A stretch of 60,034 nt of DNA, from assembly GCA_005879535.1 (NCBI GenBank), contig VBKI01000057.1, positions 10,951 through 70,984 of the forward strand, in the 5' to 3' direction. A program made the translations under genes and the position numbers. Of this stretch, positions 4,214 through 60,034 are shown one piece after another. A model generated the notes under the pieces. That model had not been told where the DNA came from, searched no databases, and worked only from the letters and a program-made list of their open reading frames with translations. Within the stretch, counting starts at the first letter, position 1, and each line of letters starts with the position of its first letter. The DNA comes from Deltaproteobacteria bacterium. GTDB taxonomy: Bacteria; Myxococcota; Myxococcia; Myxococcales; 40CM-4-68-19.

Positions 4214-5380
4214 ATGAAGCAGCTCAAGACGGGGCAGGACAAACGCGTCTCTCGCCGCTCCCTCCTGAAAGGCAGCGCCGCCGCGGCGGCGGGAGCGGCA
4301 ACCCTGGGATTCCCGGCGATCGTCAAGGCCCAGGGGCCAATCGCCATGCGCTGGCAGAGCACCTGGCCGCAGAAGGACATCTTCCACGAGTACGCGCTCG
4401 ACTACGCCAAGAAGGTCAACGACATGACCGGCGGCGACCTCAAGATCGAGGTGCTGCCGGCGGGCGCGGTGGTCCCCGCGTTCGGACTGCTGGACGCGGT
4501 GTCCAAGGGCACGCTCGACGGCGGACACGGCGTGCTCGTGTACCACTACGGCAAGCAGCAGGCGCTGGCGCTCTGGGGATCGAGTCCCGCGTTCGGCATG
4601 GACGCGAACATGCTGCTCGCCTGGCACAAGTACGGCGGCGGCAAGGAGCTGCTCCAGAAGCTCTACAATTCCATCAACGCGAACGTCGTCTCCTTCCCGT
4701 ACGGCCCGATGCCCACGCAGCCGCTGGGCTGGTACAAGAAGCCGATCACCAAGCCCGACGACTTCAAGGGACTGAAATTCCGGACGGTGGGCATCTCCAT
4801 CGACCTGTTCACGGGAATGGGCGCCGCGGTCAATGCGCTTCCGGGCTCGGAGATCGTGCCGGCTTTGGACCGCGGCCTGATCGAGGCGGCCGAGTTCAAC
4901 AACGCGACCTCCGACCGCATCCTCGGTTTCCCCGACGTCTCCAAGACCTGCATGCTGCAGAGCTATCACCAGAGCGCGGAGCAGTTCGAGATCCTCTTCA
5001 ACAAGGGGAAATTCGACGCGCTGCCGGACAAGATGAAGGCGATCATCGCGAACGCGGTGGAGGCCGCGTCGGCGGACATGTCCTGGAAGGCCATCGACCG
5101 CTACTCCAAGGACTACGTCGAGCTGCAGACCAAGGACAAGGTCAAGTTCTTCCGGACCCCGGACTCAGTCCTGCAGAAGCAGCTCGAGGTGTTCGACACC
5201 GTCCAGGAGAAGAAGTCGGCCGAGAACCCGATCTTCAAGGAGATCGTCGAATCCCAGCGCAAGTTCGCCGAGCGCGCCGTGAAGTGGGACCTGGACACGA
5301 ACGTTCCACGGCGCATGGCCTACAACCACTACTTCGGAAAGGCGCCGAAGGCCGCGACCCCCGCCGGGAAGAAGACCTAG
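4214..5380 (+). CDS. dctP: TRAP transporter solute-binding protein (DctP family)
   Basis: This 388-residue periplasmic binding protein begins with a twin-arginine signal (SRRSLLKG, then an Ala-rich core and a KAQ cleavage site), so it is probably exported folded by Tat. The mature part has DctP features: MRWQSTWPQKD, the FKGLKFRTVG segment that supplies the substrate-carboxylate arginine, and an ALDRGLIEAAEFN motif. The relatives it resembles most bind carboxylates such as 2-oxoacids or mandelate-like compounds; the substrate here is not certain. The ATG at 4214 follows an AAGGGGGAA ribosome site. It is followed by a strong hairpin, then dctQ and dctM on the same strand. Confidence 0.93.
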   Translation: MKQLKTGQDKRVSRRSLLKGSAAAAAGAATLGFPAIVKAQGPIAMRWQSTWPQKDIFHEYALDYAKKVNDMTGGDLKIEVLPAGAVVPAFGLLDAVSKGTLDGGHGVLVYHYGKQQALALWGSSPAFGMDANMLLAWHKYGGGKELLQKLYNSINANVVSFPYGPMPTQPLGWYKKPITKPDDFKGLKFRTVGISIDLFTGMGAAVNALPGSEIVPALDRGLIEAAEFNNATSDRILGFPDVSKTCMLQSYHQSAEQFEILFNKGKFDALPDKMKAIIANAVEAASADMSWKAIDRYSKDYVELQTKDKVKFFRTPDSVLQKQLEVFDTVQEKKSAENPIFKEIVESQRKFAERAVKWDLDTNVPRRMAYNHYFGKAPKAATPAGKKT

Positions 5381-17434: not shown

Positions 17435-17674
17435 GCGGGCGTGGGTAGCATGGGCGGATTTGGGCGCAAGAAAACGTGTTTTGAGATGGCAAAGTTGACA
17501 GCCGCGAGGCCCGCACGCCACAAAATGGAGCGAAGGCCAGCTATGAGAAGCCTCACCTGCGCGGCGGCCCGCGATTCCTCGCGAGACGGGGCGCCCGGGC
17601 CTGCACCTTCTCGCGGGCGCCCTGACACGCGCGCAATTTATCGATCTACGGCCGCATCGTACGCCTCGCTGCTC

Positions 17675-19525
17675 CTACTTATCGCGGCTGATCCTCCAGA
17701 TGACACCGGTCTGCGGGATCTGGACGAGCGGGCCGTTGTATCGGCAGGCCGGGTCCGAGGGCACGCAGTTTTCCGGCGCGCTACGGAACCCCGAGCGAGG
17801 ATCGCTCTGGCCGAAGTCGCGCACCGCGCCGTAATCGACGAGGTAGAGCGCGCCGTCGGGGCCGAACATCGCCGTGTTCGGCCGGTTGATCCCGCGCAGC
17901 GCGGGCGTCTCGACGAACGCCTGATCGTAGTCCCCCCTGCAGCGCGGCGTGCCGTCCGGGTCGTGGAACTGATCCGACTGCTTGCAGTTGAACGCGAACC
18001 TCGACTGCTCGAGATGGAAGGGCTCACCGGGCCGGCTGAAGTTCACCACCTCGATGTCGTGTCCCGCCGCGGGTTCACCGTTCTCCTTCGAGAACCCGAA
18101 ATCGCCCTCCCGGGAGACCAGCGAGGCTCCCTTTCGGACGACGCCGAACACGAAGGAGTCGGGGGCGAAGTCGAGGCCGACGGCCGCGACGTCGACGGGC
18201 TCGAGCGCCAGGGGAGCCGTGATCGGCTGCGGTGGGTGCGCGAGGATGGGTTGCACGGGGACATCGCCGGCCGGGGTGTGCGCCGTGACGAGCGAACTGC
18301 ACGCAGGGAACGGCGGATTCGGCGGCTGGCAGAGGTCATCGCCCGGCCCGCCCACCGGGTTGAACACCGCTGAGGTGGAGGCCAGGAAGCCGAACCGGTC
18401 CGGCCAGCCGTGATAGTCCGGGCTGCCGTCGGCGTTCTGCTGGGCGAGCTGGAGCCGATCCGGCGAGTTGTTCGTCGGGCGCGCGCCGCGCTCGTCCTCG
18501 CCGTTCTCGCTGGCGAAGAGCCCGCCCTTGAGCGCGTGATCATTGGGCGCGAAGCGGATGCCGTACGGGTTGCGATAGCCCCACGAGAAGGGCTCGATCG
18601 TGTCCTGCGGCTTCTTGGAGTGGAGCTTCGCTCTGAGAATCGCCCCGTCGCACATGCCGGCGCTCGTGGCGCTGTCGAACGCCTTCACGGTCGCACCGGG
18701 TCGTTGGACGCCGTGGGGTGAATAGCCGCTGGTGCGAACTCCACCGGGCGAGGGGAAAGTATGCTCGCTCAGCACGATGTCCTGACACGGAATGTCCTGC
18801 TGGTTGGCACCACCACCGTTGTCGAGGCCTACCACGCCGGAGTTGGTCGTCGAGCCCTGTGACCAGTAGATCCAGCCGTCCTTGAACTCGAGTTGCTCGG
18901 CGGGATGGTCACCGGTGGGCAGACCGACGATCCACGGGGTGACCGTGTTCGCCTTGAGGTCGACGGTGACGATCCGCGAGCTGTTGTTGTTACCGGACGT
19001 GCGGATGCTCTGGTTGGAGTCGGTCGCGAACAGGCTGCCGCCCTGCGCCTGGTTCTCGAAGGCGATATCGATCGCGGGACCGTCGGCTTGAAAGCCGTTC
19101 CCCGGCCCCGTGGGTTTTGCGAACGGTCCGGAGTTGAAGGTGCCATCCTTGTTCAGCACCAGGATGTCCGGGGTGAACGGATTGGTCGGCGAGAATGGCC
19201 CTCCATAGGCCGGGTCCGTACGGTCGTTGCAGCGGCTGGGCAAGCCGTGTCCCGACTCCAGCACCAGCACCTTGAAGTCGTTCTTGTTACCGGTGAATGC
19301 GATGCCGGTCGGGAAGTTCAGGTCGATCTTGCTGAAGCGCTCGACCTTGTAGCCTTTGGCCACGACGATGTCTTCGCCGTTGCCGGGATTGTAGTTGACC
19401 GTGTTTCCCGTACAGCCGGTGGTGTTGTTGGTTCTCATCTGGGCTTGCGCGGTGGCAGGTAGGAGCGTCGCGATCGAAACGAGCGCGACCAGCATGAACA
19501 GCGTCGCTCGGATTGGGTGATTCAT
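17675..19525 (-). CDS. Secreted PQQ-type sugar dehydrogenase-like beta-propeller protein
   Basis: The 616-residue protein starts with a clear signal peptide (LFMLVALVSIATLL, cleavage near AQA-QM). The start at 19525 is supported by GAGGGAAG about 5 bp upstream. The body resembles the glucose/sorbosone dehydrogenase propeller: GYKVERFSKIDLNFPTGIAF at the first blade, a GYRNPYGIRF motif, ENGEDERGARP, and GPDGALYLVDYG near the end. Members oxidise sugars with PQQ in the periplasm, but many uncharacterised secreted homologues exist and no PQQ genes are seen here. Loops rich in N, G and P are longer than in the basic fold. It stands alone, with 240 bp to the dam gene downstream. Confidence 0.82.
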   Translation of the reverse strand: MNHPIRATLFMLVALVSIATLLPATAQAQMRTNNTTGCTGNTVNYNPGNGEDIVVAKGYKVERFSKIDLNFPTGIAFTGNKNDFKVLVLESGHGLPSRCNDRTDPAYGGPFSPTNPFTPDILVLNKDGTFNSGPFAKPTGPGNGFQADGPAIDIAFENQAQGGSLFATDSNQSIRTSGNNNSSRIVTVDLKANTVTPWIVGLPTGDHPAEQLEFKDGWIYWSQGSTTNSGVVGLDNGGGANQQDIPCQDIVLSEHTFPSPGGVRTSGYSPHGVQRPGATVKAFDSATSAGMCDGAILRAKLHSKKPQDTIEPFSWGYRNPYGIRFAPNDHALKGGLFASENGEDERGARPTNNSPDRLQLAQQNADGSPDYHGWPDRFGFLASTSAVFNPVGGPGDDLCQPPNPPFPACSSLVTAHTPAGDVPVQPILAHPPQPITAPLALEPVDVAAVGLDFAPDSFVFGVVRKGASLVSREGDFGFSKENGEPAAGHDIEVVNFSRPGEPFHLEQSRFAFNCKQSDQFHDPDGTPRCRGDYDQAFVETPALRGINRPNTAMFGPDGALYLVDYGAVRDFGQSDPRSGFRSAPENCVPSDPACRYNGPLVQIPQTGVIWRISRDK

Positions 19526-51852: not shown

Positions 51853-51928
51853 GGGGCATTAGCTCAGCTGGGAGAGCGCCGCAATGGCATTGCGGAGGTC
51901 GCCGGTTCGATCCCGGCATGCTCCACCA
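51853..51928 (+). tRNA. tRNA-Ala (anticodon GGC)
   Basis: The 76-nt cloverleaf includes an encoded CCA. The acceptor stem GGGGCAT/ATGCTCC has the G3-T70 pair that identifies alanine tRNAs. The anticodon stem CCGCA/TGCGG encloses the loop ATGGCAT with anticodon GGC. The T-arm is GCCGG-TTCGATC-CCGGC, and the discriminator is A. It is intact although it forms the left junction of an integrated element: its 3' 45 bp recur at 57506-57550. Confidence 0.97.
51884..51928 (+). repeat. Left attachment-site copy (attL), inside tRNA-Ala
   Basis: The 45 bp runs from the anticodon loop to the CCA end. It matches 57506-57550 except at base 51894 (G here, C there). This copy keeps the tRNA functional. Confidence 0.85.
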
Positions 51929-51997
51929 ACAAAAGCTCCGGATAACAGCTGGTTCTGGTTGCGAGCGTATCGCTTGAGTGGATCTATGCAGCGGGCC

Positions 51998-52014
51998 GGC
52001 TAAAGCCTGGCTAA
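51998..52014 (+). repeat. Left 17-bp arm-type repeat
   Basis: GGCTAAAGCCTGGCTAA occurs here, 70 bp from the att core, and again at 57340-57356 in the same orientation. It contains two GGCTAA hexamers 11 bp apart, about one helical turn, as expected for integrase arm-binding sites. It overlaps the stop of the excisionase-like gene. Confidence 0.6.
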
Positions 52015-52224
52015 CGAACTTCTTTCGTTCGGACCGGCAGCGCCAATCGCGACGTGCCACCGGCCGCCGATACGCACGGCGCCGGCGACTGAACCGCGCT
52101 CGATGCGGGAACGAAGAGCCTTCGGCGTGAGACCGAGCCGCTGAGCCGCTTGTGCGAGCGGCATCAATCTCGTGCTCTGACGAGAACGCAGCTCGGCTCG
52201 ATGATCGGCGAAGGCGGCGTACAA
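52000..52224 (-). CDS. Small helix-turn-helix protein, excisionase-like
   Basis: Residues 21-60 (MPLAQAAQRLGLTPKALRSR, then IERGSVAGAVRIGGRWHV) form a MerR/excisionase-type winged helix-turn-helix, as found in small recombination-directionality factors. The upstream coding-like part reads LVRGVIREELYAAFADHR, but I find no good start codon: TTG at 52224 follows GAGGAG with no spacing, and an ATG at 52164 has no ribosome site. The gene may therefore be decayed at its 5' end. Its position against the attL core and over an arm repeat is where xis genes usually lie. It could also be a plain transcription regulator. Confidence 0.5.
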   Translation of the reverse strand: MYAAFADHRAELRSRQSTRLMPLAQAAQRLGLTPKALRSRIERGSVAGAVRIGGRWHVAIGAAGPNERSSLARL

Positions 52225-52564
52225 CTCCTCGCGGATGACGCCGCGGACGAGATCGCCAAATGCCGCCGCGAGATTCTTACCGGCTCGGTCGGCGCGGTTT
52301 ACGGCAGGACCGGCGCTTTCAGCTGTGCCACGCGAGCCGGAAAGCTCGCCCCGGCGCCGGCCGACGTCCCCGACAGCAAAGACGGCGGCGTCTTGAGAAG
52401 CCGTCCGGCTTCCTCGGCGCCGGCGGTGCGCTCAGTTCTCGCGTTCCGCCCGCCGGCCCCCTTCATGAGCTCGGCGACCGCGGCCGCGAGAGTCGTCATG
52501 GGGACGGGCGCGACAGAGCGTCTCCGTTCGCCTGCGCTCTTGTACGTCCACCGCAGCCTCCAGC

Positions 52565-52873
52565 TCAGCCGCGCTTAGCTGGTCCCTTCTTCGCTACGGC
52601 CAGCGCCTGTGTCGCGATCAGCTGCCGGTACCGTGCGTCGAGCAGCGATCGGAAGTAGTCCTCGCGGTTGAGCCCGAGCTCCTTCATGTCGTCGGTCATC
52701 GTCTGCGCCATCTCGCGCGCGACATTGTGGAAGAAGAAGATCTCCAGGGCGGCCCGGATCGAATGCGCGAAGGGACGGCCGCGTTCCTCGCTGTCCTTGC
52801 GGGCGCGGTCGAGTAGAGGCGAAGGAAGCCTCATGGTTACGACCTCGAGCTCCTCCGTCGGCGTCTTGGACAT
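52565..52873 (-). CDS. Ribbon-helix-helix-like DNA-binding protein
   Basis: The 102-residue protein has an N-terminal beta strand and two helices with RHH character (VVTMRLPSPLLDRARKDSEE, then RPFAHSIRAALEIFF). A helical C-terminal half (DDMKELGLNREDYFRSLLDA) and a basic tail follow. GAGGGAG lies just before the ATG. Upstream (52880-52915) is the most AT-rich patch of the element, with a TACAAT -10-like box on the minus strand (52892-52897), a likely autoregulated promoter. Such proteins act as antitoxins, plasmid regulators or relaxase accessory factors; no toxin is adjacent. Confidence 0.72.
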   Translation of the reverse strand: MSKTPTEELEVVTMRLPSPLLDRARKDSEERGRPFAHSIRAALEIFFFHNVAREMAQTMTDDMKELGLNREDYFRSLLDARYRQLIATQALAVAKKGPAKRG

Positions 52874-53025
52874 TGAGCTCCCTCGAATACGATTGTATGT
52901 ACTATTAGCATGCAGTTCAGATGCACACGGCAGAGCCGCGACACATGCTCCCTTCGCATGGATTGCGTCGCACGCGGCCGGCTGACCTCCCTTCGTGGGA
53001 GGAGCTCAACGTGGGGAGGAGTCGC

Positions 53026-53490
53026 GTGGAGAAGCGACGACTTTCGCCGGACGCCATCGTCGAGCTGCGCGCCGAGAGGACGCGCGTCTTCGTCGACGAT
53101 GAAATGGGCTTTGGGTCGCTCCCGAGGAGCGCCGAAAACGCGCGCGCCTGGGCATTCGCGAGACTGACGCGGTACGCATCGTTCATGGTGCGAGGGGGCA
53201 ATCGCACGCTCTACGCGCAGAAGTATCCAGTCCGCTGGAAGGCAAAGCTCGTTCTGCTCACTCCCTCCGAAGAGCGCGCGTCAACCCTCACCGAGGTCAT
53301 CACCGAGTGGCAAGAGGTCAACCGCTCCGTACCGCTCGTCGCGAGGGCGCTCACGATGCGGCACGCTGCAGGCGATGGAGCAGACGCCTGCCTGCGATCA
53401 GCTGCCGTCCTGGCGGTCGCTCGCCGGTGCTCGACAAGAGCCAGCCAGGGTCCTGCTCGCCTCACTTCCGCCGGGTGCACGAGCGCTTAA
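53026..53490 (+). CDS. Truncated replication-relaxation-like protein
   Basis: The GTG at 53026 follows GGGAGGAG. The 154-residue frame opens with RRLSPDAIVELRAERTRVFV and continues with DDEMGFGSLP, LTRYASFMVRGGNRT and AKLVLLTPSEERASTLTEV. This series (PDA..L, acidic E/D-x-D/E-G, LxRY, VLxxxPSExR) resembles the C-terminal nuclease-like half of replication-relaxation proteins found on plasmids and conjugative elements. The usual N-terminal winged-helix domain is absent, so it is probably truncated. The last 35 residues are of low quality and may be out of frame. The frame is open from 52921. Confidence 0.5.
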   Translation: MEKRRLSPDAIVELRAERTRVFVDDEMGFGSLPRSAENARAWAFARLTRYASFMVRGGNRTLYAQKYPVRWKAKLVLLTPSEERASTLTEVITEWQEVNRSVPLVARALTMRHAAGDGADACLRSAAVLAVARRCSTRASQGPARLTSAGCTSA

Positions 53491-53559
53491 TTTAATTTCC
53501 TGATCGAGGCCGGAGACGCGACGTCGCCCGGCCCCGCGTCCATGGGGGGGAGGGCCGCG

Positions 53560-54759
53560 GTGAAGAGATGGCGGGAGCGCCTGGGGCGCTTCTTCGAGTT
53601 CGAGGGCACTCGGGACCGCATCCGTTCCATGGAGGGGCTCCGCGGGCTGGCGGTCGCGCTGGTGTTCTTCGTGCACTACGAAGGGCTGTTTGGCGGGTGG
53701 GTCGCGCCAGGCACCGCCTCGGCGAAGGCGGCGACGTTCCTCGCGACCGTCGGCCACACGGGCGTCGATCTGTTCTTCGTGCTGAGCGGCTACCTGATCT
53801 ACGGCGCGGTCATCAAGATGCGCGAGAACCGCGGCGGGTACGCGAGCTTCATGCGCCGCCGCGTGCGCCGGATCCATCCCACGTTCCTGGTGATGCTCGC
53901 CGTCTACGTCGCCTTGTCGATCTTCGCCCCGGGCGAGAGCAGGCTGCCGGTAGGTCGTGGCGCCGCGCTGGTCTACGTGATCGAGAACGCGCTGTTGCTG
54001 CCGATCCTGTTCGACGTGACGCCGCTGATCACGGTGTCGTGGTCGCTCAGTTACGAGATCTTCTACTACGCGATGCTCCCCCTGCTGGTCGGCGTTTTCG
54101 GAATGCGCCGGTGGCAGCCGCGCACCCGTGTGCTGGCGTTCGGGGGTCTCGCGGCCGGTTACGTCGTCGCCTGCTTCCTCGGCGCGAGGCACGTCCAGCT
54201 CATCCTCTTCGTCTCTGGCATCTTCGTGTACGAAGCCTGCCACTCCGAGCGCTTCGCCCGGCTCCTGTCGCGAGCCGGCGCGCAGTGGATCGGCGCGGGC
54301 GCGCTGGCGGCGTTCCTGCCCATCGCGTTCGTCGTCGTCACTGGCCAGGTGCTAGGCCTTCCCACGTCGGTCGCGGGGCGGTACATCGCTTGCGCGATCT
54401 GGCTGTTCGTCGCGCTCTTCGTCGTGACCCTGGTGGTGTTCCGCGCGTCCGGGCCGCTGCGCGGGTTGTTCTCCGTGGCTCCCCTGCGCTGGCTCGGGAA
54501 CATGAGCTACTCGTACTACCTGATGCACAGCCTCGCCCTGAAGGGTCTCGCGCTCGCGATCGCCCGCGCGCGCCCCGGCTGGAATCCCGGCAGCGCTGGG
54601 CATTGGGTGTTCGTCCCGATCGCGTTCGCGGTGACGCTCGTCAGCTCCGCCGTGCTGTTCGCGGCGGTCGAGAAGCGCTTCAGCCTGGCTGCGCCACGGC
54701 CCGCTCCGGCCGGGGCGCAGCCCACAGTCCTGGCGCTAGAGGCTGCTCCCGCGCGCTGA
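53560..54759 (+). CDS. Acyltransferase-3 family membrane O-acyltransferase (OafA-like)
   Basis: The 399-residue protein has about ten membrane segments. The family start RIRSMEGLRGLAVALVFFVHY is followed by GHTGVDLFFVLSGYLIYGAV, MRRRVRRIHPTFLVML, and VSWSLSYEIFYYAMLPLL. The conserved RxxR-type basic and histidine positions are present. It would O-acetylate or otherwise acylate a surface polysaccharide; the flippase/polymerase cluster ends 1.8 kb upstream. The GTG at 53560 is chosen because GGGGGGAGG lies 6 bp before it; an ATG at 53542 precedes that site. It is the best-preserved cargo gene of the element. Confidence 0.88.
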   Translation: MKRWRERLGRFFEFEGTRDRIRSMEGLRGLAVALVFFVHYEGLFGGWVAPGTASAKAATFLATVGHTGVDLFFVLSGYLIYGAVIKMRENRGGYASFMRRRVRRIHPTFLVMLAVYVALSIFAPGESRLPVGRGAALVYVIENALLLPILFDVTPLITVSWSLSYEIFYYAMLPLLVGVFGMRRWQPRTRVLAFGGLAAGYVVACFLGARHVQLILFVSGIFVYEACHSERFARLLSRAGAQWIGAGALAAFLPIAFVVVTGQVLGLPTSVAGRYIACAIWLFVALFVVTLVVFRASGPLRGLFSVAPLRWLGNMSYSYYLMHSLALKGLALAIARARPGWNPGSAGHWVFVPIAFAVTLVSSAVLFAAVEKRFSLAAPRPAPAGAQPTVLALEAAPAR

Positions 54760-55208
54760 GGCACGGCACGACAGCACCGGCACTACTTGTCGTGCCCCTC
54801 GTGCTCTCGTCGCGGAGGAGCCCTCTGATCTCTCCATTGGGCCACCGGGTGGAGTGGAGGTTCACGTACGTGACCCCTCCGCGGATGGCGTTGACCAATT
54901 CTGCGAATTGCCCTGGCTCGATTCCTTGAGCCGTGGGACCGACGACGTTCATGGCGCGGATGGTGCCTTCGACAGTGGCCGACTTCCCAGGCGCCGGCTG
55001 CGGGCAGACCGGAGTCCCAGCGGGCCCATTGCCCAGATTGGTGCAGAGGAACGCGGCGATTCCGCCGTTGACCGATGGCTGCCCGAAATGGATGTGCGAT
55101 TGCAGCACGGAGCCGCCCTCGATGTCTCTGTAGGCGAGCTTGTAAACGATCTTGGGTCCGTCGACGTGCCTGCCCTGCGAGCAGTGACAATGCGGCGATC
55201 AGAACCAA
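54680..55208 (-). pseudogene. Decayed CHRD-domain secreted protein
   Basis: One minus-strand frame holds a good CHRD-domain core: LQSHIHFGQPSVNGGIAAFL, GQFAELVNAIRGGVTYVNLH and PNGEIRGLL. The signal-peptide-like start (LVLIAALSLLAGQA from 55208) is in another frame, and the CHRD frame has a stop just upstream, near 55205. The N-terminal third of the domain is also short. A third frame ends cleanly at 54783 (EHEGHDK). At least one frameshift is therefore needed. The open CHRD frame overlaps the 3' end of the acyltransferase gene. CHRD proteins are secreted, of unknown biochemical role. Confidence 0.55.
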
Positions 55209-55423
55209 TCCACCCAGGCGCGACCAAGGCGACCAAACGGACCTTATCTGTCCTTCACCACTCGCCTCGCTCGCACTGCTCCCGCGTATCCGATACGTGT
55301 TCTAGGCGCGACCGCCTTTCAAACGCGCCCTCGTCCGAGCGCCCGCTCTCCGCAAGCGCCGCGACGGTTGCAAGGGCCCGCACGCCGTGTCCAGATTGCC
55401 TTCGACCCGCGTCGGAGGCGCCC

Positions 55424-56815
55424 ATGCGCCGAATCCAGCTCGCGCTCGCAGCGTTGATGCCAGCCCTCTTCGTCGGAGCCTTGCGGTGCGGCTCGAGCCA
55501 TTCCGGCTCGCCGTCTGTCGGTCCCGCAGTAGATGGTGGCGGCGCCGGCGGGGGCGGTGGGGGCGGAGGCGCCCCGGATGCCGGAGGTGGCGGTGGGGGT
55601 GGAGGCGACCAGCCGGATGCCGGAGGTGGCGGCGGAGGTGGGGGCGGCGAGCCGGATGCCGGAGGTGGCGGCGGGGGTGGGGGCGGCGAGCCGGATGCGG
55701 GAGGTGGCGGCGGCGGCGGCTCACCAGACGAATGCGCGGGGCTCTCACCGGCCGCCGTAGGGGCGCCATCGGCATCGGTGGGGCTCAGTGCTGGTCGATT
55801 CGAGATATGTCGGACGGGATCGAGCGATGGGTTCGGCGTCGTCGCGCTGATCGTCGACAGCCGGTTTGATGTGATTCCACGCCGCAGTAGCGTGTTTCTG
55901 TTCGACTCGTCCGGTAACAGCCGGGGCACGTACTCCGGACCGGACCAGCGGAGCCCAGGCGATCCGGCGTTCACGTTTCTTACCGAGCAGCTCGCCGGCT
56001 TCGAGCTGAGAAACTGGGACCCCGATACGGGTAGTGAGGTGGTAGCGATCGACGGCACAGGATCAGTCGTGGGCAGCACGAGAACGATCAATGCGGTATT
56101 TGTGCTCGTGGCGATCGATCCATTGGGCGGAGTCGTCGTCTCCTCGGTGCCGCGCGATTCGTCGCCTACGCGAGCCATCGCCGCGTACGACGATCGCGCC
56201 CGGCTCCGCTGGCGAACCGAACTCCCCTCGTCCGACGCGATCGTCGCGGTCGGCGTCGATCGGCAGGGGAACACGCTTGCGCTGGTGGACGGCTCCAGCC
56301 GCTACGGGAGCGGCAAGCTCGCGGGCGTCTGGCTGGACCATTCCGGGCGCGCGGGGAGCGTATTCGAGGCTGCCGACATTGGAGATTCGCCGCGAGGAGC
56401 TCTCCTGCTCACGCCCCGCGTCGAGAGCGGTCTGTTCTTGCGCCGGAGCGACGGCGCATGGATACGGCAGTTCGACGCGTTCGGTCCGGGCCAGCCGCCC
56501 CCGAGCTGGCTCGAGGCGCGCGCCTCCACGACGCTGCACATGGCGCGGGGCGGCCGGGCCTACGCGGTGATTTCGCCCCCGCCCCCGACATCGGGCGGCG
56601 CGTGCCAGGCCACGATCGAAGTCGTCGCGCCCTCGGGAAAGACCTGTGGCACCGCGGTATTCCCGGGCGAGCAGAACGCCTTTAACGGCTTTTGCACCGC
56701 CTCGTTGACGGTCGGCTACGACGGGACGGTGATCGAGAAGCTGGACGAGCGGTCCACGGGGGCCGGCGGCGGCAGGGTCTGCGGGTTCAGCTGGTGGACC
56801 GGCTTCCTCCAGTGA
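55424..56815 (+). CDS. Exported protein with poly-Gly/PDAG tandem repeats and a propeller-like domain
   Basis: The 463-residue protein begins with a signal peptide (LALAALMPALFVGALRCGSS); a cysteine is present but the lipobox is poor. A linker of about 85 residues consists of tandem 13-residue units (E-PDA followed by nine Gly). The remainder, about residues 105-463, is beta-rich with blade-like words (FEICRTGSSDGFGVVAL, VDRQGNTLALVDGSS, GGRAYAVIS) and cysteines at CQATI, CGTAVF, FCTASL and VCGF. The start has GGAGG 6 bp upstream. Gly/PDAG linkers of this kind are usual in myxobacterial lipoproteins. Function is unknown. Confidence 0.78.
   Translation: MRRIQLALAALMPALFVGALRCGSSHSGSPSVGPAVDGGGAGGGGGGGGAPDAGGGGGGGGDQPDAGGGGGGGGGEPDAGGGGGGGGGEPDAGGGGGGGSPDECAGLSPAAVGAPSASVGLSAGRFEICRTGSSDGFGVVALIVDSRFDVIPRRSSVFLFDSSGNSRGTYSGPDQRSPGDPAFTFLTEQLAGFELRNWDPDTGSEVVAIDGTGSVVGSTRTINAVFVLVAIDPLGGVVVSSVPRDSSPTRAIAAYDDRARLRWRTELPSSDAIVAVGVDRQGNTLALVDGSSRYGSGKLAGVWLDHSGRAGSVFEAADIGDSPRGALLLTPRVESGLFLRRSDGAWIRQFDAFGPGQPPPSWLEARASTTLHMARGGRAYAVISPPPPTSGGACQATIEVVAPSGKTCGTAVFPGEQNAFNGFCTASLTVGYDGTVIEKLDERSTGAGGGRVCGFSWWTGFLQ
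55574..55720 (+). repeat. 39-bp tandem repeat, about 3.8 units
   Basis: Units begin with CCGGATG at 55574, 55613, 55652 and 55691, an exact 39-bp period; the last is partial. It encodes the PDA-Gly linker and keeps the frame, so copy number could vary without breaking the gene. Confidence 0.9.
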
Positions 56816-56837
56816 ACCTCCGCCGCGACCTCGCGCG

Positions 56838-57294
56838 CTAACGCTCCTTGCCACGCATGGAGCGGAAGAGCTCTTTCAGATTTTCGCGGTCCTAGTCGGT
56901 CGCGTCGGTGAACTCACCGCCGCTCTTCAGCCACTCGCCGCCGTCGATGCGATCCGATGCGCCTCGACGTGCGTAGTGAGCGCGGAGCGCGCACCGTATC
57001 GGTAGGCGTCGATGTCCTTCGCCTGAGGGTTCGTGTACTCGGCGCAGAAGCGGTCGATGAGCGCGCTTAGCGTGATCCGCTTCGCTCTGATCGTTTCGCC
57101 GGTCGGCTTCGCCGCGATGCCGACCTTGCCGTTCGCGACATTGGTCTCCGCGGCCGCCAGTTGGATCTTCGCCTGCCCCATCGTCGTGCCGTTCGGACAA
57201 GCGACCCACTTCTGCCGCCCGTCGAGACCTTGAAGACGATGTAACGGCGAACCTTGCCGCCCTCGGTCCGCTTCCGACCGACGATGCTGCCCAT
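56838..57294 (-). pseudogene. Tyrosine-integrase N-terminal remnant with frameshifts
   Basis: The ATG at 57294 has GGAGGG upstream and starts MGSIVGRKRTEGGKVRRYIV, the arm-binding N-terminus of phage-type integrases. Near 57220 the reading must shift by one base to give DGRQKWVACPNGTTMGQAKI, then the core-binding region TLSALIDRFCAEYTNPQA and DAYRYGARSAL. A second shift near 56945 leads to DGGEWLKSGGEF, an in-frame TAG at 56892-56894, then ENLKELFRSMRGKER and a final stop at 56838. The whole catalytic domain (R-K-H-R-Y) is missing. It reads away from attR, and without a helper the element could not move. Confidence 0.72.
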
Positions 57295-57339
57295 CACCCT
57301 CCGCGCACGTCGAGGCGCGGCGGCATGATAGCGGCTCGT

Positions 57340-57356
57340 GGCTAAAGCCTGGCTAA
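57340..57356 (+). repeat. Right 17-bp arm-type repeat
   Basis: An identical copy of the left repeat, in the same orientation, lies 45 bp upstream of the integrase start and 149 bp from the att core. It is followed by an A-rich run. Confidence 0.6.
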
Positions 57357-57505
57357 AAAAAGTTGCGACTTCGCGGGGTGCGGACCGCCCTGGCCATCCT
57401 GCGTCAATCAGGCGCGAATTTGAGAGTGATGACGATGTTCTTCCGGCAGATTTGGTGGGGCGAGATGGGACGCGGATCGCCCCGTCACACCCCATGCCTT
57501 CCAAG

Positions 57506-57550
57506 ATGGCATTGCCGAGGTCGCCGGTTCGATCCCGGCATGCTCCACCA
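57506..57550 (+). repeat. Right attachment-site copy (attR), tRNA-Ala 3' fragment
   Basis: It repeats the last 45 bp of the tRNA including CCA, with one change at 57516 that would break an anticodon-stem pair. It has no 5' half and is not a tRNA gene. It marks the right end of the element. Confidence 0.85.
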
Positions 57551-57736
57551 CTCTAGAAAACCCTTTGTCGCGCGAGTCGCTGATCGTGCCAGTGGGTCAG
57601 TTAGTGGATCAGTTTGGACACAACGCGCCTAGAGATACTCCTGGAAAACGCGCACACTGAACTGATCTCTGAACGAGGAAAGCTCAGGCTCCGCCGCGCA
57701 GTGCTCGACCGCGAGCTTGGCTGCGGAGACGTGCGG

Positions 57737-58471
57737 CTACTCGTCGGGAACTGTCAAGACAGGACACGGCTGCCCGCCATCAGGAAGCCACGCGGCCGTT
57801 CCTCCGTCGCCCTGCCTGCAACTCCAACCCATGTCGAGTCTTCCGATGCCTCCGTCCGATGAACGGTCGGAAGGATAGAAGATGTAGTGGCGGGGTCCGG
57901 GCGCGTCGTACCCAAACTGCACCGTCGCGCCATCTGGAACGCCCATGTCCTCGCTCAGCTGCGACTCCACTCGGAACTCGGTAGGACCATCGCTACAACT
58001 ACTCCCAAAAATGATTTGGGCGTGTCCTTTCGCCCCGAACCGCTTGCGGAGATCGCCGATAGAGTAGTGGCCATCCAACGTGTCGCCACCGCCCTCGCCT
58101 TCGAGCAACGTCACGAATATACGTGGCCGCACCTTCGCGCGGTAGCGGCACAATTGGCTTTCGAGAATGTTCGAGCGTGCCACTGGTACGACCGTCAGCG
58201 TTCTGCCGTCTGCGAGCGAGAGCGTCGTCGCAACGCCCGGTCGCGACGCAGCGACCGCGTCCTGCATCTCGTCGATGCGCGACACCTTCTCGGCGCCGAC
58301 GTGTGTGACACATTCCCCCTGCCTCAGACCGGCCTGGGCGGCGGGTCCATCAGGGAGAACGAGGAGCGCCCTGACGCAGCCCTCGCCATCCTCCAAACCG
58401 ATTCCCAAGAAGCTCTGTCCTGCTTCATGCGTCACGGCGAGAAGAATGAGAAGGGGTAGCAAGGGTTTCAT
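57737..58471 (-). CDS. Exported PDZ-domain protein
   Basis: The 244-residue protein starts with a signal peptide (LLPLLILLAVTHEAGQS). A PDZ domain spans about residues 20-95: FLGIGLEDGEGCVRALLVLP, DGPAAQAGLRQGECVTHVG and IDEMQDAVAASRPGVAT. The C-terminal 140 residues are beta-rich with three cysteines (LCRYRAKV, SSCSDGP, WSCRQG) and match no family I know. No protease domain is attached, so it is probably a binding or scaffold protein. The ATG at 58471 lacks a good ribosome site. It lies just outside the element. Confidence 0.76.
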   Translation of the reverse strand: MKPLLPLLILLAVTHEAGQSFLGIGLEDGEGCVRALLVLPDGPAAQAGLRQGECVTHVGAEKVSRIDEMQDAVAASRPGVATTLSLADGRTLTVVPVARSNILESQLCRYRAKVRPRIFVTLLEGEGGGDTLDGHYSIGDLRKRFGAKGHAQIIFGSSCSDGPTEFRVESQLSEDMGVPDGATVQFGYDAPGPRHYIFYPSDRSSDGGIGRLDMGWSCRQGDGGTAAWLPDGGQPCPVLTVPDE

Positions 58472-58531
58472 CGACGCAGCGATGATTCTGCACGGAATAG
58501 CAACTTCGTGTCACGCCAGCGCGGTGTGCTG

Positions 58532-58557
58532 TGTAACGGCGGGAACCCGGTGTTACA
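58532..58557. other. Hairpin between the lipoprotein and PDZ genes
   Basis: TGTAAC/GTTACA arms enclose an inner CGGG-AA-CCCG stem separated by a 2x2 internal loop. It is located after the lipoprotein gene in that gene's direction. No T-tract follows on the minus strand; it is a possible transcription or stability element. Confidence 0.4.
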
Positions 58558-58611
58558 GCTAACATCTCCGAAGGACCCCGATGCTTGCACCAGGAGCAAC
58601 GACGCCTGCTT

Positions 58612-59307
58612 CTATCGACTGGAATCGGTGACGAAGAGCGGGCGGTCGTCCGTGAAGCTGAGGCTTTTCAGGAACGGCGCTACCTCGCTACTGTCGAGAT
58701 GAAACGCATGCTCGCCGGCGACGTACCGCTCGCTGTAGCTCACGTCGATGAGGTATTGCGGCCAGCGCGGGTGCAAGCAGCGATATCCGCGCACCTCCAG
58801 CGTAACCGACTTTCCGGGCGCGTCGGGGACGATGTTCTCGACGCCGAATTCGTATTTCACGCACTGAGCGCCGAGAATCGTGTCGAGCATCGTGCTCTTC
58901 GCCAGCACCCGGTGACGCCCGTCTACGTACGAGTCGGCCAAGCGTTCCGCCTGCTCCTTCTCGAATTGCAGGAAGTCGTCCGCGCCGGCAAACATTCTCC
59001 ACCCCACGTCCCAAATGTGAACCTCGGCTTCAGTCGTGTGAACGTCGGGTGTATCAGCGTGATCGACCACTTTTGCGAATCGCGCGACGAGGTAGATCGG
59101 TGCCGGATCTGCCGGAACCGGCGGCATGGCGAACCAGCCAGGACCAGTCGGCGGCAGCACCGAGAAGCCACGGAACTGAATCCGCCGCGTCGGATCCGTG
59201 ATCCTCACCGGCTGCGATCCAGGCCACGTCCGACTCGATGCGGCCGCGCAAGCGGCAATCGAAAGTGCGGCGGCGACCATCGGGAGGGCGCGAGGAAATG
59301 GTGGCAT
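58612..59307 (-). CDS. Lipoprotein of unknown function
   Basis: The start at 59307 gives 231 residues with a lipoprotein signal (MVAAALSIAACAAASS, lipobox SIAAC). The mature part is a mixed alpha/beta domain: IQFRGFSVLPPTGPGWFAMP, APIYLVARFAKVVDH, TEAEVHIWDVG, a helix DFLQFEKEQAERLADSY, and EFGVENIVPDAPGK with a Cys (GYRCLHP). It ends with a helix-strand AFHLDSSEVAPFLKSLSF. It looks like many single-domain envelope lipoproteins seen in soil proteobacteria; no named family is recognised. The frame is open upstream to 59457 but only the inner ATG has a signal. Confidence 0.74.
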   Translation of the reverse strand: MPPFPRALPMVAAALSIAACAAASSRTWPGSQPVRITDPTRRIQFRGFSVLPPTGPGWFAMPPVPADPAPIYLVARFAKVVDHADTPDVHTTEAEVHIWDVGWRMFAGADDFLQFEKEQAERLADSYVDGRHRVLAKSTMLDTILGAQCVKYEFGVENIVPDAPGKSVTLEVRGYRCLHPRWPQYLIDVSYSERYVAGEHAFHLDSSEVAPFLKSLSFTDDRPLFVTDSSR

Positions 59308-59349
59308 GGGGTGCGTGGACTCTACCCGAGGTCGCCGTACCGCGAGCGT

Positions 59350-59598
59350 GTCGTGGCGCCCATGGAGCGCGATAGGCTGATCGAGCCGACGAAGGCGGGG
59401 CTGGCTCGGACGCGCGCGCAAGGACGTGTTGGAGGCCGTCCCCGGAAGCACTCCCACTGGTCAAGGCGGCTTTGAAGAGCTCGACCAGGGCGCCAGCTAC
59501 GACAGGACGTGTGGAAGCGATATGGCGTGCCGGCATCGACGTTGCGCCGGTACAGGGCGGCGCTCAGGATAAACGGGCCGGTAGGACCTACAATCTAG
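59350..59598 (+). pseudogene. Serine recombinase (resolvase/invertase) C-terminal remnant
   Basis: The frame from about 59362 reads MERDRLIEPTKAGLARTRAQ and GRVGGRPRK, a close relative of the resolvase hinge (E-R-D-L-I-R-E-R-T-K-A-G-L-A-R-A-R-A-Q-G-R-x-G-G-R-P-R-K). It then hits a stop at about 59475. After a frame change, LRQDVWKRYGVPASTLRRYR resembles the recombinase's terminal helix-turn-helix and ends at 59598. The catalytic domain is absent. This is a second, unrelated recombinase relic within 2 kb of the tRNA-borne element. Confidence 0.65.
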
Positions 59599-59905
59599 AC
59601 CAGGGCAGCGGGAAGAGCGCGAGCCCTACCAGGAGCGCAACCGCCACGGCCATGGGCAAGACTGCTCGACGGCGGCGCCCGGCGGGTCCTCGCGCAAGTT
59701 GCACTGCTCCCCCGACAATCAAGAACAGGGACGCCGCGGGTAGAAGGACGAAATGGCAAGTCACGTACAAGAATCCCCAGTCTCCTGTTGCCCTCTCGCC
59801 AGTACCGAAGGCGAGTGGAAGAACCTCGGGTACGAAGCCCAGCGCAAGCAGGCCGACAAATCCCGGCCAGTCAACCCACTTATCGAGGAACGTTCGCCCC
59901 TCCAT
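59588..59905 (-). CDS. Small integral membrane protein
   Basis: The 105-residue protein (start at 59905, MEGRTFLDKW) has three hydrophobic segments near residues 15-35, 45-68 and 84-102, with a basic loop GPAGRRRRAVLP between the last two. No motif is recognised. The longer start at 59977 adds a charged stretch without a ribosome site. Its last bases overlap the recombinase remnant. Coding probability rests on hydrophobic organisation only. Confidence 0.55.
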   Translation of the reverse strand: MEGRTFLDKWVDWPGFVGLLALGFVPEVLPLAFGTGERATGDWGFLYVTCHFVLLPAASLFLIVGGAVQLARGPAGRRRRAVLPMAVAVALLVGLALFPLPWSRL

Positions 59906-60034
59906 CTTGCTGACTCTATCTTTTCGGGCGCGGATGGTGCGCTCAAAGAGTTCGCCAGGAGCAATCCGCCGCGCCAACGTGGAAGCAGGACCCGGAGAAG
60001 CGGCGGTTTCTGAGCGCCGGCGAGAAGCCGGTCA

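Follow-up and report, generated by a model that had tools for sequence, protein, structure and literature searches.

The only tRNA gene in this stretch of DNA raises the question whether it bounds an integrated element and, if so, what kind of element this is and how far it reaches. The stretch analysed, referred to as the window, comprises 60,034 nucleotides of contig C57 from G000, the source genome of a soil myxobacterium (5.16 Mb, 118 contigs), and its right end is the end of that contig. The gene was identified by ARAGORN as tRNA-Ala(GGC) at 51853-51928 on the plus strand. Its last 45 bp, 51884-51928 (att1, taken as attL), recur in the same orientation at 57506-57550 on the plus strand (att2), as revealed by a repeat scan and by local BLAST (44 of 45 positions identical, E ~1e-14). 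The repeated part extends from tRNA position 32, located in the anticodon loop, to the CCA. An integrative element borne by tRNA-Ala and flanked by attL and attR, as proposed in the original prediction, is thus supported by a repeat lying base for base where it had been placed. This segment of about 5.6 kb between the tRNA-Ala 3′ end and its displaced copy, positions 51929-57550, is called element 1 here; att2 represents its attR and at the same time the left end of a second element. An intact tRNA at one end and a displaced 3′ fragment at the other, as expected for a tRNA-borne element, were therefore both present.

The sole difference between the two copies is G at 51894 versus C at 57516, corresponding to tRNA position 42. 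It had been suggested that this change breaks the anticodon stem; it would indeed disrupt pair 28-42 in a complete tRNA, but att2 has no 5′ half and hence no partner at position 28, so that there is no stem to break. Base composition, considered as a sign of foreign origin, did not mark the element: the GC content of the element is 67.3% compared to 67.7%, and the tetranucleotide distance lies inside the range of the backbone. The extent of the element was correctly given for the 5.6-kb unit but incompletely for the locus, since further att copies exist on another contig of G000. Contig C51 (L033) carries two more tRNA-Ala 3′ ends, 1741-1785 and 5130-5174, which have the same orientation, differ from att1 by one mismatch each and bound a 3.4-kb segment. 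All three displaced copies start in or near the anticodon loop and end with CCA.

The gene content of element 1 agrees largely with what had been listed. A weakly excisionase-like HTH gene (52000-52224, minus strand; PHROG excisionase E = 0.0015; Pfam HTH_17 E = 0.009, below the cut-off), a weakly RHH-like gene of the CopG/Arc type (52565-52873, minus strand; Pfam CopG_antitoxin E = 0.005, below the cut-off; PHROG E = 0.03), a broken integrase gene and an O-acyltransferase gene were recovered, whereas the replication-relaxation-like gene found no support in Pfam or PHROGs. The open reading frame at 52921-53490 (plus strand) had no family match in either collection. The cargo consists of the membrane O-acyltransferase (53542-54759, plus strand; Acyl_transf_3, Pfam E = 7.7e-30), a CHRD-domain fragment (54821-55102, minus strand; Pfam E = 2.5e-7) and a Gly-rich lipoprotein-like gene (55424-56815, plus strand), which holds a 39-bp tandem repeat at 55547-55741 encoding a Gly-rich spacer. 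In Pfam and PHROG scans of the ORFs, no structural or packaging gene of a prophage and no relaxase or transfer gene was recognised.

Of the integrase gene, just an N-terminal remnant was found, frameshifted into two frames and truncated (56954-57294, minus strand; PHROG integrase E = 0.0011 on read-through), and a functional site-specific integrase gene is absent from element 1. Searches of 147 and 195 genomes, a phylum sample included, yielded no convincing intact relative of this remnant; of three weak matches (L044-L046), two (L044 and L045) were discarded as their ORFs looked unrelated. Element 1 is a relic of a tRNA-borne integrative element or genomic island, not a functional one, and as such a decayed example of an already known kind which the original prediction had spotted correctly.

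Comparison with related genomes revealed the same tRNA-Ala gene with other content. The polysaccharide genes to its left (O-antigen-ligase-like, glycosyltransferase) adjoin tRNA-Ala also in G001, G006, G007 and G010, and a PiT gene is conserved in 11 of the 12 genomes, though more weakly in G008 and G010. Between tRNA-Ala and the PiT gene, almost nothing is common to the genomes compared; this interval appears to be an integration hotspot. An intact tRNA-Ala with a single att and none of the element 1 genes was found in G001, G007, G009 and G011. Their right flanks are variable, and no site that is strictly empty and keeps the same right flank was seen, which counts against the explanation we favour. 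No relative compared carried the same genes in the same order, a finding named beforehand as one that would refute the original prediction. After tRNA-Ala of G007, G009 and G011, inspection by eye showed a hairpin resembling a terminator together with a T-run, and the first 27-30 bases past att1 (51929-51958) resemble the tRNA terminator region of G009 as well as the flank in G010; possibly, they are an element-borne replacement of the terminator.

The original prediction had also offered a rationale, namely that the element carried a polysaccharide-modifying gene and landed beside a polysaccharide cluster. This was not upheld by the relatives. G010, which belongs to another genus, contains at the same tRNA a stretch with 84% DNA identity (L035) to 52395-52658, at the end of the RHH gene, and keeps part of the 52921-53490 ORF at 59% protein identity, beyond which similarity ends; between this part and a lipoprotein 39% identical to that of element 1 there is no acyltransferase. 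G006, a member of the same genus, has the same upstream genes and tRNA-Ala with different cargo, among it a DUF4143 protein. Because the related element in G010 does without the acyltransferase and the same cluster adjoins the tRNA in relatives with unrelated cargo, the acyltransferase looks like incidental cargo, and the polysaccharide cluster is simply the neighbour of tRNA-Ala.

Just inside both att copies we found an identical 17-mer, GGCTAAAGCCTGGCTAA, composed of a word of six to seven bases that occurs twice at an 11-bp spacing. The proximal arm-like site (51998-52014, plus strand), identified by genome search and supported by the layout test in relatives described below, lies 69 bp past the tRNA and is overlapped by the 3′ end of the xis-like gene. 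The distal arm-like site (57340-57356, plus strand), identified by repeat scan and genome search, has the same orientation and starts 167 bp before att2, counting the preceding T. Even when two mismatches were allowed, these were the only two sites in G000, and among 145 genomes of the order the sole other exact site is located in G006, 67 bp past tRNA-Ala. A site with one mismatch in G029 looked unrelated and was dismissed. As a database probe the 17-mer was of no use: it gave 3 matches in a collection of viral contigs and 33 in one of genome contigs, none beside a tRNA except the G006 record, and many of these matches are palindromic REP-like repeats. As one copy lies on each side of the core and inside the element, which is the layout expected of integrase arms, the two sites are probably integrase arm sites.

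The same features speak against a partial tandem duplication of the tRNA gene as the source of the second att. Such an event, without any integration, would be equally expected to leave a tRNA fragment in direct orientation. However, the copies are 5.6 kb apart and enclose an integrase fragment and a repeat pair unique to their inner sides, the three displaced copies begin in or near the anticodon loop and end with CCA, and relatives have one att copy. A duplication, which had been named as a possible refutation of the element, is therefore rejected as highly improbable on account of the foreign genes and matching arm-like repeats between the copies and the other content in relatives.

The doubled repeat of the window led to a layout test, which was devised after that repeat had been seen; the rule was first noticed within G000 and then tried on other genomes. 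In G000, the tRNA genes beside integrase genes (Val, Lys, Pro, Arg-CCG and Arg-TCG) each have a doubled repeat of their own at +70 to +72, always spaced by 11 bp, and each integrase examined adjoins a different arm sequence. A search with one of these integrases gave matches in 79 of 142 genomes of the order and, with a stricter cut-off, in 70 of 195 genomes of the phylum. A four-cysteine insert just before the HxLRH box was present in 25 of 28 aligned integrases. The test set comprised 59 loci with the tRNA end at most 600 bp from the integrase C-terminus, a doubled repeat being defined by at least six identical bases; 18 integrase loci with no tRNA in reach were left out of the offset test. 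A doubled repeat with a spacing of 11 was found at +66 to +80 (median 71) in 54 of the 59 loci, which are related by descent, so that this and the other counts do not represent independent trials. With at least seven identical bases, spacing 11 occurred in 51 of 59 loci, spacings 7 and 8 once each, and spacings 9, 10 and 12-16 never.

The same spacing and offset from the tRNA were shared by 40 distinct arm sequences at 8 tRNA types. As the distance from the tRNA to the integrase end varies between 90 and 527 bp, the repeat is placed relative to the tRNA, and as 11 is not a multiple of three, so that the halves of repeats inside int are read in different frames, it should be a feature of the DNA. 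Random stretches showed such a doubled repeat in 0.4-0.45% of cases. Among 52 distinct flanks of tRNAs not classed as adjacent to an integrase, three carried the signature, namely the window tRNA-Ala, the G006 tRNA-Ala and a viral contig with a related integrase; minus these three, which were set aside after viewing, the count was 0 of 49. The plan is not universal, as the four E. coli K-12 islands looked at (thrW, argW, leuX and ssrA) displayed no doubled repeat at +65 to +80. An earlier description of the 11-bp arm layout was not found in the open-access literature.

One may ask whether the doubled repeats are operators of an excisionase or repressor, or REP-like repeats, rather than arms. 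They do lie inside or beside int or xis genes, and GGCTAAAGCC-type repeats were found in unrelated genomes. Operators would hardly be expected, though, to keep an 11-bp spacing and a fixed tRNA offset across 8 tRNA types and 40 arm sequences when the integrase end itself lies anywhere from 90 to 527 bp away, nor to occur at both ends and to be absent from tRNAs with no integrase; moreover, the database matches elsewhere are not located beside tRNAs, G006 excepted. We consider this explanation unlikely and retain the assignment as putative arm sites.

The far ends were inspected in 18 islands, each covered over up to 20 kb. A distal att was located in eight islands, and all eight have a second arm copy (0-3 mismatches) whose start precedes that att by 131-147 bp; the remaining ten yielded no distal att and no arm copy within up to 20 kb. 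The tRNA-Pro island of G000, a sister of element 1, was recovered in full over 4.1 kb, with a distal att matching at 27/29 positions and a distal arm lying 136 bp ahead of it; the order of its int and xis genes differs from that of element 1, which speaks against the explanation we favour. These results suggest, with somewhat better than even confidence, that tyrosine integrases with the four-Cys insert, which is zinc-ribbon-like and precedes the HxLRH box, define a phylum-wide tRNA-targeting family with one rigid attP plan. The doubled arm, its halves one helical turn apart, would lie about 71 bp from the tRNA and the other would start 131-147 bp before the far att; arm sequences would vary while the spacing is fixed, and the plan would mark both ends of an island even after loss of the integrase, as here.

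Element 1 itself conforms to this plan in part. Its doubled repeat with spacing 11 at +69 agrees with the four-Cys group (background 0.45%), whereas its identical second copy starts 167 bp before the distal att and thus outside the 131-147 bp of the intact islands, which counts against the explanation we favour. For this reason, element 1 is said to work like the four-Cys group rather than to belong to it. An assignment of the integrase remnant itself to the family was likewise unsupported: it scored 3.9 bits, like shuffled sequences, and the catalytic part that would bear the insert is missing. This, too, together with the lack of any relative of the remnant in the phylum sample, counts against our explanation.

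Further islands of this kind were noted in passing. A tRNA-Gly(CCC) gene of G000 (L155, contig C68, c15006-15081) is followed at about 5.06 kb by another att copy (58/60), together with a repeated integrase 3′ end, which represents a further tandem array in this genome. On contig C108 (L151), a tRNA-Lys island combines an integrase gene broken in frame with a gene for a HicA toxin (Pfam E = 1.7e-12), and an ORF resembling a transposase lies where the contig stops. C53, C64, C65 and C108 all end within tRNA islands that carry an integrase, and it seems that the G000 assembly breaks inside such islands. At a tRNA-Met gene of another genome (L197, G088 contig C7), a tandem array shows distal att copies 8.3 and 11.0 kb away, each preceded by an identical arm copy.

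Arm pairs at both ends of an island predict that they are separated by about 250 bp in the circular attP. Phage Mx4, of which 5.9 kb were examined, encodes a distantly related integrase and contains only two such doubled repeats, which are copies of each other with one mismatch and lie 251 bp apart, the first of them inside the int 3′ end; a tRNA core was not recognised in Mx4. Phage Mx9 revealed no doubled-repeat pair, and its similarity to tRNA-Gly concerns the 5′ half. The phages thus gave one result for the layout and one against it. In Mx8, attP lies within the int coding sequence (PMC6070905), and similarly the arm pair of many islands studied here sits in the int 3′ end; unlike these phages, most of these islands are small segments borne by tRNA genes.

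Arm-binding domains of mobile-element recombinases have been described (PMC8138268). Lambda Int works on an attP with P and P′ arms (PMC4880445). The layout found here resembles this type of attP in that arm repeats flank the core on either side, span roughly 250 bp altogether and include repeats that adjoin each other on one arm (PMC4880445); it differs in having one direct-orientation pair per side with exactly 11-bp spacing. A similar organisation is known from ICEMlSymR7A with its 283-bp attP, repeated arm-type sites, tyrosine integrase and wHTH excision factor (PMC11963761), but its five sites share one consensus, while here two pairs are present whose sequence varies between elements.

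According to the att copies on C51, element 1 opens an array in which att copies delimit three or more segments. Element 2 begins with its left part at 57551-60034 (no strand assigned), runs off the contig end and appears to continue on C51 up to att3. Its proximal arm-like site, the 23-bp sequence TGGGTCAGTTAGTGGATCAGTTT at 57593-57615 (plus strand), has its partner at C51:1646-1668, before att3; among 12 genomes these are just two sites, both in G000, the one on C57 beginning 42 bp past att2 and the one on C51 preceding att3 by 95 bp from start to start. Furthermore, the PiT gene present on C51 shares a contig with tRNA-Ala in G001 (10.6 kb apart) and in G007 (17.7 kb), and in G004 with a tRNA-Ala att remnant (15.9 kb). 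On the basis of PiT synteny and the split repeat pair we place C51 to the right of C57, which suggests the order att1-E1-att2-E2-att3-E3-att4. Since the contig ends show no overlap and adjacency is deduced, C51 might instead lie elsewhere, its att copies stemming from a separate remnant and element 1 standing alone. This is improbable given the joint occurrence of PiT and tRNA-Ala, or its att remnant, on one contig in G001, G007 and G004, the restriction of the 23-bp pair to C57 and C51 and the equally lowered GC content of both element 2 flanks (62.8% and 61.4%).

The remainder of the array is less regular. Element 3 possesses a doubled repeat 135 bp before att4, the partner of which is absent after att3. 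Another doubled repeat, TGGCAGAGCCGTGGCAGAG (L033 5190-5208), occurs 15 bp past att4 as a single copy in G000 and may be the near arm belonging to a fourth element that has lost its other end. Both this repeat, with its distance of 15 bp, and element 2 (+42, 95, spacing 12) depart from the layout rule. No match to the tyrosine integrase catalytic domain (PF00589) was obtained on C57 or C51, although the gap between them could hide one. Within element 2, the stretch 59362-59475 resembles by eye the C-terminal end of a serine resolvase (EPTKAGLARTRAQGRVGGRPRK) and had no Pfam match; a possible piece of an integrase gene at the window's rightmost edge was judged unconvincing. Beyond att4, L033 5335-6625 is about 72% identical in DNA to window 17662-19033, the genes being paralogous.

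Both cores (44/45) and both arm 17-mers of element 1 are intact, raising the issue of whether it could still be mobilized, in trans or in cis, by a related integrase elsewhere or by an array neighbour. G000 has other integrases of an arm-using family, and tandem arrays as well as transfer of CIMEs have been described (PMC5704250). No matching integrase is in sight, however, because no other G000 site matches GGCTAAAGCCTGGCTAA and each integrase examined stands beside a different arm sequence; the arms of elements 2 and 3 differ too. Mobilizability thus appears a minor but real possibility, and element 1 would presently be immobile.

With high confidence, we interpret element 1 as a decayed integrative element at tRNA-Ala(GGC) which has lost its integrase and become part of an accreted array. 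It would have entered when its attP recombined with the half of tRNA-Ala(GGC) reaching from the anticodon loop to CCA, the tRNA being rebuilt on the left (att1) and the displaced 3′ copy remaining on the right (att2). The integrase presumably docked with its N-terminal arm-binding domain on the doubled arm sites flanking the core, each with its two repeats spaced by roughly one helical turn, and bridged them to the core, while the small HTH protein is a probable excision factor. Later the integrase was destroyed, whereas the cargo, the two att cores and the arm pair at either end survived, and other elements with the same target but other arm sequences may subsequently have accreted to yield att1-E1-att2-E2-att3-E3-att4, an array of the CIME form. 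The sequence itself shows the att junctions, the paired repeats, the loss of the integrase gene, the additional att copies and the variable interval in relatives; contacts between integrase and arms, the function of the HTH gene, the order in which elements inserted, present immobility and any mobilization in cis are deduced. CIMEs keep attL and attR, have lost their integration genes, accrete at the same site and originate from decay of ICEs or IMEs (PMC5704250). The array begun by element 1 is alike in its retained attL and attR, its lost integration genes and the presence of more elements at the same site (PMC5704250); it differs in that no transfer gene was recognised and the array neighbours carry different arm sequences, and its cis-mobilization is putative. 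A rebuilt tRNA gene and a displaced fragment also mark the ends of the tDNA islands collected in Islander (PMC4383910), from which element 1 differs by the loss of its integrase and by paired repeats as extra evidence for its ends.

In summary, the original prediction was right about the element, saw less than its full extent and over-read its purpose. The locus is an ordinary relic; its att layout is the interesting part and the lead to a testable, rigid attP plan.

Islands in tRNA genes are usually found via an integrase and a tRNA fragment. An arm-site spacing rule would give independent, base-level evidence for both island ends, would serve relics and arrays devoid of an integrase, and could match up contig ends, as here with C57 and C51. 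It also opens to testing by what means related integrases maintain a single arm geometry when arm sequences vary from element to element; such differing arm sequences may keep array neighbours from cross-reacting.
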